10,720 bases of DNA, from contig JAOUGG010000039.1 of assembly GCA_029857855.1 (NCBI GenBank), positions 1-10,720 of the forward strand. Direction: 5' to 3'. A model generated the notes under the pieces. That model was given only the letters and a program-made list of their open reading frames with translations, made no database searches and had not been told where the DNA came from. The position numbers and the translations under genes were made by a program. The stretch's first letter is position 1; each line of letters opens with the position of its first letter. This document shows, piece after piece, positions 3,763-6,482 of this stretch. Source of the DNA: Acidimicrobiia bacterium (GTDB taxonomy: Bacteria; Actinomycetota; Acidimicrobiia; Acidimicrobiales; SZUA-35).

Positions 3763-4644
3763 TCAGCCGCTGCGGCCGCCGCGGCCGTCGGGGCTCCCGA
3801 TGGACATGTAGGAGGCCCGCCAGTCGTGGCCGGGCCAGTGCACCGGCGCCTGGACGGTGGTCCGAGGCAGAAAGGCCGAATCGAACAGCCGGAGCGCCGT
3901 GTCGACCACGAGCCGCTGGTCCTCTCGGTTCCCCGGAGGTCCACACGGGTTGCCCAGGGGCACGTCGGTGAACACGAATCGGGCGACGGCGGCCTGCTCG
4001 ACGATGTCACGTGCGCTGCCGATGACCACAGTCGGGAAACCCGCCTCCTCGAGGTGTCGTGCGACCAAACTCACGGTTTGGTGGCAGACCGGTCAAAGGG
4101 GAACGAGGAGCACCAGATCGACGTCGTCGTCGTCACACCAGGAGGCGATGGTCTCGGCGTCGGCTCGGGTCGATCGCTGGCTGTATGTGGTCGGAATGCA
4201 GAAGAACCGATCGTTGAGCGAGCCGAGACGGCCCTCGGCGGCGAACCCGGCCAGCGTCCGCAGGGGGAGAAACGACTCCACGTCGTCGGTGGTGGTGGCA
4301 TCCTTGTGCCAGAAGAGATCGTCGGTGTACATCTGCTCGGGCGGCGGATCGGCGGCCACGGCCCGGACCGACTTCGCTGGCCTCGGGCCGTCGTGGCACT
4401 CGACCGGAAACGAGGTGGTCACCACGGCAAGACGGCTCGAGGCCACCGCCCGTTCCGGCTTGTGGAACGGAGCTGAATCGTTCGTCACCCAGCGGTAGGG
4501 CTGTTCGTAGCCTTTCGACGCGTAGTAGCGACGGGAACGATCGATGTAGCTCAGGGCGACCCGGTGGGCCGGATCGATCGTGCCATCGGCTTCCGCCATG
4601 CCATCCTCGTGGTTCGGCGGGATCGTCGCCTCGACATCGGTCAT
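3763..4644 (-). CDS. GrdB-like selenoprotein (glycine/sarcosine/betaine reductase selenoprotein B family), with in-frame UGA read as selenocysteine
   Basis: Read through one TGA (4095-4093), this is a continuous 293-residue protein. Selenocysteine is residue 184, in L-L-V-P-L-U-P-V-C-H-Q-T: a U184-x-x-C187 redox motif. Residues 25-65 (S-Y-I-D-R-S-R-R-Y-Y, P-Y-R-W-V-T-N-D) and the segment after U184 (S-L-V-A-R-H-L-E-E-A-G-F-P-T-V-V-I-G-S-A, then F-T-D-V-P-L-G-N-P) match, from my knowledge of the family, the short GrdB-like proteins that carry Cys or Sec at this site. True GrdB is part of clostridial glycine reductase; the role of these short homologues is unknown, and a thiol/selenol redox role is inferred. 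A SECIS-like hairpin follows the UGA. The real stop is also TGA (3763-3765). ATG 4644 lies 8 nt after a -10-like TACGCT without a ribosome site; the alternative ATG 4599 has GAGG five bases upstream. It is convergent with the methyltransferase, 9 bp apart. A nonsense mutation is the rival explanation. Confidence 0.85.
4060..4086 (-). other. Candidate bacterial SECIS hairpin
   Basis: Directly downstream of the in-frame UGA the minus strand folds as TGC (4086-4084), a C-C mismatch, ACCAAAC (4082-4076), loop CGTGA (4075-4071), GTTTGGT (4070-4064), C, GCA (4062-4060). This makes a perfect 7-bp upper stem and a 3-bp lower stem. The apical loop begins 17 nt after the UGA and has G as its second base. 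Both facts fit the general bacterial SECIS pattern: a hairpin close behind the UGA, a small loop, and a G among the first two loop bases, which SelB recognises. The hairpin lies inside the coding sequence, as bacterial SECIS elements do. Confidence 0.75.
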
Positions 4645-4658: not shown

Positions 4659-4753
4659 GAACACGCGACGACGCCGACCACAAACACTGCAGCCTCATCG
4701 CCCGGCGGAAGCGCCCGACCCCGGTGCCGCGGCGTAGATGGCCCGGGTGTCGG

Positions 4754-4851
4754 TAGTATTGGTGGGTGCGGCTGCGGAGTTGGTGAAAGGCGGCCAGCCG
4801 GTGAATCCGACAAGATTGAAACATCTGCCCACGGCGGGTTGTCCGATGGGC
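4754..4851 (+). promoter_or_regulatory. Candidate promoter, leader peptide and alternative hairpins upstream of the SPOR-like gene
   Basis: TAGTAT (4754-4759) is a good -10 candidate. Six bases later a GTG (4766) opens a six-codon reading frame, Met-R-L-R-S-W then TGA (4784-4786), which would be leaderless. GTTGG inside its last codons (4779-4783) can pair with CCGAC (4807-4811). The overlapping ATCCGACAA (4805-4813) can instead pair with TTGTCCGAT (4839-4847) with one mismatch. That in turn excludes GCCCACGG (4827-4834) pairing with CCG-A-TGGGC (4843-4851, one bulge). The arrangement resembles an attenuator, but each stem is short and could arise by chance in GC-rich DNA. Confidence 0.25.
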
Positions 4852-5017
4852 TCGTGCGCAACGGTGGTGGTTGGTGGTACAGCTGCACAGTGGGCATCGA
4901 TGGAGGCCGTGTTGGCGGTCGTCGAATCACGGCGTGACGCGAGTCGGGTTGTGCGTGCCGCCCGTGTGTGTGATGGTGTCGTTGGACCCACGACGATCGC
5001 AGTGAACAAGGCGAGAT

Positions 5018-5022
5018 AGGAG
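5018..5022 (+). promoter_or_regulatory. Ribosome binding site fixing the GTG start at 5031
   Basis: AGGAG lies eight bases before GTG 5031, at good spacing. It supports that GTG as the start of the membrane-anchored SPOR-like protein. Confidence 0.7.
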
Positions 5023-5030
5023 ATTCGGCT

Positions 5031-6482
5031 GTGGCCGAGACGGGAAACGAAAACGGGAAGGCGGACGATGGTCGTGACCGTGCGGCGAGTGGACCGCCGC
5101 CATCCTTTGGTCACACCAACCCCGAGTGGTCGACGAACGACTTCTCGGGTCTCGACCTGGGGGAGGACTCGGTCGACACCTCGGCCCGCCCGGTCCGCCG
5201 GTTGAACCTTCCTCCGCTGGCTCAGACCGGCGATGACGGAGGACTCACGGGTGGCCCCGGACCGGCGGATGCCGGTGTGTTCGCCTCGGTGCCCGATGAC
5301 GAGAACCTGACGGTCAGCCCGTCGGCGGCGGCTGCTGATCGCACGTCGGTGCAACCGGTCCGTCCCAACGGTTCTGCCGGTAGCTTTCAACCGACGGCGT
5401 CGGCCCCCAAGCAGGGAACGCCGCCCCATCCGCTCACCGCGGCCCGAGGGCCCGGTACAGGCGCCGGGCCGAGCCGCGGCGACCAGGATCGGTACCGACC
5501 GGCCGTGGGAGGCGGATCGCCCTCAGGAGGCGACTACGGCGACTACACCACGGTCTACGAGGAGGACATGAGAGGGTTCGATGACCGGTTCGACAGTCTG
5601 GATCGCCGACAGGGCCCGCAGGCGGGAGGCCAGCGTCCCGGCGCTCCCGGCGGCCCGGGGCCCCGGCAGCCCGGCCGTCCTCAGCTGGAGCTGGCGCCGG
5701 CGCTGCCGGTGCAACAGGATCGCAGCCGCTGGATGATCCCGGTTGCGGCGTTGCTCGGCGTCCTGGCCCTGGCCGCCGGCTACTGGGTGTTCGTGCGCTC
5801 CAACGACGACCCGGCCACCTTCGCCGCCGATTCCGGCGATCTGGCCGCTGATCTGGTCGAGGAGGAACTGGAGGGTGATCCCGCCGCCGATGGTTCGACG
5901 GCGCCGACCGATCCGGCCGCCCCTGCCGTCCTCTCCGATTCGCCGGTGCTGACGCTCGAAGGTGCCGCCGACGGACCACTCGAGGTCGAGACCCAGTACG
6001 AGATGACGATCGACGGTGTCCCCAACGGCTCGCAGTACCTCGTCGTGGTCGATGACATCCCGCAGGAACCGGCCCTCGACTATCTGCCGGTGCTCATCCT
6101 GCCCGAGGGACGGCACACGATTTCGGTGACGGTCACCTCCGGTGGGCAGACGGCCAACACCAACCCGGTCGAGGTCTACGTACTCGCTCCCGAGCTGACC
6201 GCCACGCACCGGGCGAACCTGTCGTCGGTGAGCGTTGGCGATCAGGGCTGGGCCGAGGCGTTGAAGCAGTTCGACGAGTTCAGGGCCGCCGGCCACGAGA
6301 ACCTCATGCTCTCACCGTCGGACCCCTACCCGAGCCTGCTGCCCGGATTCTGGAACCTGTATGTGGCCGGCTTCGCCGATAGCGCGGCGGCCATCGCCTA
6401 CTGCGAGCAGTTCGAGCTGACCGTTCCCGATCAGTGCTATCCAGCACCGTTCGACCCCGCCGGACCGCCTCGCGACGGCTGA
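5031..6482 (+). CDS. Single-pass membrane protein with disordered cytoplasmic N-terminus and SPOR-like C-terminal domain
   Basis: 483 residues, GTG start with AGGAG. Residues 1-230 are low complexity, rich in Gly, Pro, Asp and Ser, and probably disordered and cytoplasmic. One transmembrane helix spans about 235-255 (M-I-P-V-A-A-L-L-G-V-L-A-L-A-A-G-Y), preceded by S-R and followed by V-R. An acidic Ala/Pro linker leads to an Ig-like beta region (about 310-395, T-I-D-G-V-P-N-G-S-Q-Y, then L-P-E-G-R-H-T-I-S-V). A final domain (about 397-470) has helix, strand and G-F-W-N-L-Y-V-A-G-F-A-D-S-A-A-A-I-A-Y-C, which resembles the second half of a SPOR domain, the peptidoglycan-binding fold of division proteins. 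Two cysteines (Y-C-E-Q-F and D-Q-C-Y-P) could form a disulfide outside the cell. The specific role is unknown; an envelope or cell-division link is inferred. It shares topology with the protein at 8324-9364. Confidence 0.75.
   Translation: MAETGNENGKADDGRDRAASGPPPSFGHTNPEWSTNDFSGLDLGEDSVDTSARPVRRLNLPPLAQTGDDGGLTGGPGPADAGVFASVPDDENLTVSPSAAAADRTSVQPVRPNGSAGSFQPTASAPKQGTPPHPLTAARGPGTGAGPSRGDQDRYRPAVGGGSPSGGDYGDYTTVYEEDMRGFDDRFDSLDRRQGPQAGGQRPGAPGGPGPRQPGRPQLELAPALPVQQDRSRWMIPVAALLGVLALAAGYWVFVRSNDDPATFAADSGDLAADLVEEELEGDPAADGSTAPTDPAAPAVLSDSPVLTLEGAADGPLEVETQYEMTIDGVPNGSQYLVVVDDIPQEPALDYLPVLILPEGRHTISVTVTSGGQTANTNPVEVYVLAPELTATHRANLSSVSVGDQGWAEALKQFDEFRAAGHENLMLSPSDPYPSLLPGFWNLYVAGFADSAAAIAYCEQFELTVPDQCYPAPFDPAGPPRDG

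Follow-up and report, generated by a model that had tools for sequence, protein, structure and literature searches.

GrdB and PrdB are both listed as selenoproteins with a UxxC motif in reviews (PMC13188914, PMC9312934), and the chemistry given for them in one of these is the reductive cleavage of a C-N bond (PMC13188914). Cleavage of a C-F bond by a GrdB homologue has been put forward as a published proposal (PMC10838667). Sec-containing PrdB was reported from the Sargasso Sea with 42 genes (PMC1088965), and 235 PrdB sequences with UxxC were reported from the Global Ocean Sampling (PMC2398784). Going by these survey reports, the kind of protein described here is already known, Sec-containing 'PrdB' being abundant in marine metagenomes. 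The present analysis places it in Acidimicrobiia, finds no PrdA with it and gives grounds for questioning whether members of this clade should be called 'proline reductase'.

The gene lies on a stretch of DNA of 10,720 nucleotides from an Acidimicrobiia bacterium, referred to here as the window, and its product would be a selenoprotein that belongs to the PrdB/GrdB superfamily and stands alone. On the minus strand, positions 4644 to 3763 translate in one frame into a PrdB-like protein of 293 residues, the terminal TGA at 3765-3763 included in these coordinates, with a single internal stop, the TGA of codon 184 (4095-4093). This codon is flanked by ...DLVLLVPL on the upstream side and PVCHQTVSLVARHLE... 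on the downstream side. The motif obtained by reading through it is U-P-V-C-H-Q, in which Sec184 would be the first residue of U-P-V-C and Cys187 (codon 4086-4084, minus strand) the second redox residue of UxxC. The likeliest start codon of the gene is the ATG at 4644-4642. A mechanical ORF for the first half begins at an ATG at 4824 and comprises 243 amino acids; P0001, a database entry that matches the window's protein exactly, has 183, the length expected if translation begins at 4644 and stops at the TGA. For the second half, gene callers would give a spurious GTG-initiated ORF of 103 residues (3763-4074, minus strand), predicted in a preliminary description of this DNA and present in the ORF list. 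Gene callers end the Sec form at residue 183, as in 14 of the 120 database homologues listed, and those records therefore lack what is likely the catalytic residue.

To evaluate the coding constraint on both sides of the TGA, dN/dS was calculated by the NG86 method between the window gene and its nearest relative (in genome G007), which is 82% identical and carries the TGA likewise. Codons 1-183 gave a dN of 0.117 and a dS of 0.626 (dN/dS about 0.19), and the 107 codon pairs available for comparison downstream of the TGA gave a dN of 0.070 and a dS of 0.508 (dN/dS about 0.14). The low dN relative to dS past the TGA indicates that the second half is constrained in the same frame, and purifying selection there is at least as strong as upstream of the TGA. 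With a single internal stop and constraint on both sides of it, the earlier claim that the frame runs unshifted through the TGA is upheld.

Relatives of the gene were sought in the DNA of the window's own genome and of 60 related ones, 61 in all. Matches to the PrdB-like protein were found in 34 of the 61 genomes, in 121 rows, of which 115 contain one TGA, five contain no stop and one contains a TAG. Where the stop lies was determined for 32 loci, namely the window, 28 TGA-bearing loci, one stop-free locus, and L052 and L053, two named Acidimicrobiaceae loci in which the residues around the motif are identical to those of the window. Translated from the DNA of the window and its 31 relatives, the motif codon is TGA in 31 of the 32 loci and TGT in L047; sequencing error at codon 184 is unlikely because of this recurrence. 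The preliminary description had considered that a TGC or TGT might stand in place of the TGA, and the one TGT found is thus not the window's. Protein-database homologues were examined for the 120 matches listed out of 734. Among these 120, site 184 is Cys in 105 and Trp in one, and 14 sequences, P0001 included, stop at ...PL, the residue preceding the UGA, as expected from the claim that ordinary gene calling truncates the protein. The expectation that the site holds Cys or Sec is borne out, the single Trp (P0077) being the one other residue among the 120. In an alignment of 30 rows, made up of the window protein (with Sec entered as Cys) and 29 chosen homologues including P0077, PVCHQ at 185-189 is invariant and column 184 is at least 90% Cys. 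With Cys187 invariant and TGA in nearly all loci read, the assignment of a Sec at codon 184 that completes U-x-x-C is well founded.

These data bear on two other readings of the codon. According to the first, the TGA is a true stop, so that the gene is a pseudogene or encodes a truncated protein and its second half is a remnant. Gene callers do end the protein there, in P0001 and 13 others among the 120 listed, but the purifying selection past the TGA, the sharing of the TGA by 31 of 32 loci, the Cys in 105 of the 120 homologues and the many second-half alignment columns that show no variation make this extremely improbable. According to the second, UGA 184 is read as a residue other than Sec, either as Trp or by near-cognate suppression. 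The homologue P0077, with Trp at the Sec position, is the observation that would fit it; this Trp is perhaps a UGA that was read as Trp by the gene caller of its source. Such decoding is hardly credible in view of the Cys in 105 of the 120 homologues listed, the use of TGA as terminal stop in the window gene and in many relatives, the Sec machinery described below, and the alignment of the site with the Sec of PrdB. Together with the machinery and the hairpin described below, these comparisons make it very probable that the PrdB-like gene truly encodes a selenoprotein.

The preliminary description had named the Sec machinery of the same genome as a check. The genome to which the window belongs (G000) is 81% complete and consists of 978 contigs. 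It contains a tRNA-Sec (67.3 bits against a gathering score of 47), also called as tRNA-SeC by ARAGORN, and a selB of 259.7 bits, above the cut-off of 242.25. The selA gene adjoins selB and runs off the end of the contig, and this cut copy scores 254.5 bits, below the cut-off of 267.9. No selD was found in this 81%-complete genome, the matches being weak (best 42.1 bits). Elsewhere in the genus selD scores above the cut-off, in 11 of the 12 genomes, with G000 as the sole exception, and its absence from G000 is likely an assembly gap. The best selD match in each of these 11 genomes contains one internal TGA, and at all ten loci fetched (L072-L081) the TGA lies in the motif GAG-U-(G/A)-(C/A)-K, which we take to be the active-site Cys/Sec motif of SelD. 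Because of the in-frame TGA in GAG-U at 10 of 10 loci, the SelD of this genus is probably itself a selenoprotein.

The same description regarded a selenoprotein as uncommon in actinobacteria. This view is not borne out, as 214 of the 396 Actinomycetota genomes searched have a selB above the cut-off (228 of 396 at E <= 1e-60) and a relative of the window protein is present in 64 of the 396 (E <= 1e-10). Of the 64 genomes that contain a relative, 57 have selB at E <= 1e-60, versus 171 of the 332 without one (Fisher p 5e-9, kinship ignored). In seven of the 64 Actinomycetota genomes with a relative, one of them 98% complete, no selB was found at E <= 1e-60. It is noted that loci of distant Actinomycetota (L084-L109) have PrdB-like motifs such as UPLCHRSVGLV and UPLCTRTVSTL, many of them with Sec; these proteins are probably separate subfamilies.

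Insertion of Sec at UGA 184 would proceed through the tRNA-Sec, SelA and SelB of the cell, aided by a hairpin just downstream. Such a SECIS-like hairpin, with a conserved stem and covariation, is located directly 3' of the UGA on the minus strand (4060-4086). It comprises a 7-bp stem (4076-4082 paired with 4064-4070), a 5-nt loop (4071-4075) and three further pairs after a bulge. The hairpin was assessed in 32 distinct sequences, 30 from TGA-bearing loci of the family and two from the G000 paralogues. Without regard to kinship among the 32 sequences, 90.0% of the hairpin cells are paired versus 86.0% in shuffles, and changes on both sides occur in five of the ten pairs versus 1.2 in shuffles; for each measure, none of 500 shuffles reached a value as high. 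Sliding the partner strand by 1-3 columns reduced the pairing to 22.5-39.7%. An earlier count on 20 of the 32 sequences gave 88.5% paired and five pairs with double changes. In 15 of the 32 sequences the outermost pair is not formed, and 24 of the 32 have all pairs of the 7-bp stem, compared to 2% of synonymous randomisations. The folding energy of the region is ordinary by the same kind of randomisation, 33% of the randomised sequences being as stable as the window or more so, with a mean z of -0.26 over the 32 sequences. Because the folding energy is not unusual, it is the specific stem and not its stability that speaks for a SECIS. In five Cys homologues, 4-6 of the seven stem pairs are formed. 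The hairpin is a reasonable SECIS candidate, and both this role and the Sec insertion itself are inferred.

The protein had been described as GrdB-like, and the family models do not bear this out. Among NCBIfam models the best match is PrdB (TIGR04483), with 61.9 bits versus a cut-off of 300. The four GrdB-type models listed reach 23.1-35.2 bits, all below their cut-offs, TIGR01917 (GrdB) having 23.1 bits against 602.2, and Pfam GRDB (PF07355) scores 11.4 bits against a cut-off of 22. Judged by these scores, the window protein is nearer to PrdB than to GrdB and misses the curated cut-offs of both. Three PrdB-like genes with one TGA each were found by searching the window's genome. The two besides the window gene lie on other G000 contigs, C231 (L055) and C326 (L056), and they exceed the Pfam GRDB cut-off of 22, with 24.0 and 41.2 bits, whereas the window gene falls short of it. 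Ten sequences were aligned, among them the window protein, the C231 and C326 paralogues and the annotated prdB of Peptoclostridium acidaminophilum. The Sec residues of the window protein, of both paralogues and of the Peptoclostridium prdB, and with them the TGA of the annotated gene, all fall in column 412.

PrdA, the pyruvoyl partner in the classical route, gave no match at E <= 1e-3 in the 12 genus genomes, six of which have a completeness of 90% or more and a contamination of 5% or less. With a Terrisporobacter plasmid as control record, the same model scored 975 bits for PrdA and 444.5 bits for a PrdD/reductase-component-B region. GrdA likewise gave no match in the 12 genomes, and the positive control for the GrdA search gave no match either. 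With no PrdA found, the classical D-proline route is probably not used by the window protein.

The neighbours of the gene are rph, rdgB, tRNA-Leu and clpP, in surroundings that are mostly housekeeping. A uracil-methyltransferase-like gene is convergent with it, and a protein without a Pfam match and a helicase are divergent from it. Much of this gene order is common to several relatives, and the surroundings give no functional link for the PrdB-like gene. No grd or prd genes were recognised beside the window gene, and none are annotated beside two Cys homologues carried by plasmids of Roseomonas and Haematobacter, where the surroundings differ. It should be mentioned that the segment at 4731-5056, which separates the selenoprotein gene from the divergent gene at 5031, matches its counterpart in the nearest relative with 88% identity over 328 bp, and that the selenoprotein gene is less identical than this segment (81% of bases before the TGA and 85% after). 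The segment looks non-coding because its plus-strand ORF of 93 amino acids is not kept in one frame, and it has no Rfam match at the gathering score.

The protein might nevertheless be a component of a working D-proline or glycine/betaine/sarcosine reductase whose partners are encoded elsewhere. Its best family match is to PrdB, and the surveys name marine selenoproteins of this general type PrdB. This reading is unlikely, since the score is far under the equivalog cut-off, PrdA is absent among the matches in the 12 genus genomes while the control record responded, and grd or prd neighbours are missing both here and in the annotation at the two plasmid Cys homologues. The window protein is most likely a solo UxxC oxidoreductase.

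For such a solo enzyme, the AlphaFold2 model of the Cys form (mean pLDDT 85.1) places residue 184 between the strand 177-181 and the helix 185-200, and the product is predicted to have an alpha/beta fold, its Sec lying at the N-terminus of a helix. By analogy with PrdB, the Sec selenolate would attack an electrophilic atom of a small substrate, and candidate targets would be the carbon of a C-N, C-S or C-halogen bond, or an S-S or O-O bond. Cys187 could then resolve the adduct to give an Se-S bridge, which a cellular thiol system would reduce again. Alternatively, the enzyme could serve the stress response, using its Sec to reduce peroxides or disulfides instead of C-X bonds, which would be consistent with UxxC as a common thiol-redox motif (PMC2398784) and with a solo gene that has 2-10 PrdB-like matches per genome in the 12 genus genomes. 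We find this possible though rather doubtful, as the precedents in the superfamily are C-N cleavage (PMC13188914) and the proposed C-F cleavage (PMC10838667).

On balance, we consider it highly probable that this is a solo selenoprotein gene of the PrdB/GrdB superfamily, with UGA 184 decoded as Sec with the help of the hairpin and with PrdB-like chemistry. A wider proposal, on which we are evenly divided, is that the 'PrdB' of the surveys would, at least in the Acidimicrobiia clade, be separate pyruvoyl-independent, single-subunit seleno-reductases with several paralogues per genome, which reductively cleave a small electrophile and are not proline reductases. If the solo reading is true, a selenoenzyme type labelled proline reductase has a different substrate in this clade.

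With PrdB (TIGR04483), the window protein shares homology over residues 94-253, the Sec column and UxxC. It differs in its length, 293 residues against 238 positions in the model, in its motif (U-PVCHQ, against U-GTCHR in the Peptoclostridium prdB), and in that its 61.9 bits stand against 300 and no PrdA was found with it. With GrdB (PF07355, TIGR01917), there is weak likeness to the C-terminal part of the model; in contrast, the model has 431 positions and the protein of 293 residues lies under every cut-off. The marine-metagenome 'PrdB' of the Sargasso Sea and the Global Ocean Sampling, compared here by description, are likewise Sec-containing UxxC proteins, assigned to proline reductase by the surveys (PMC1088965, PMC2398784). 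Full-length homologues are the proteins of Bradyrhizobium, Roseomonas, Haematobacter and others annotated as 'Glycine/sarcosine/betaine reductase selenoprotein B family protein' or 'glycine reductase', which are 40-51% identical to the window protein in the 30-row alignment and have Cys instead of Sec.
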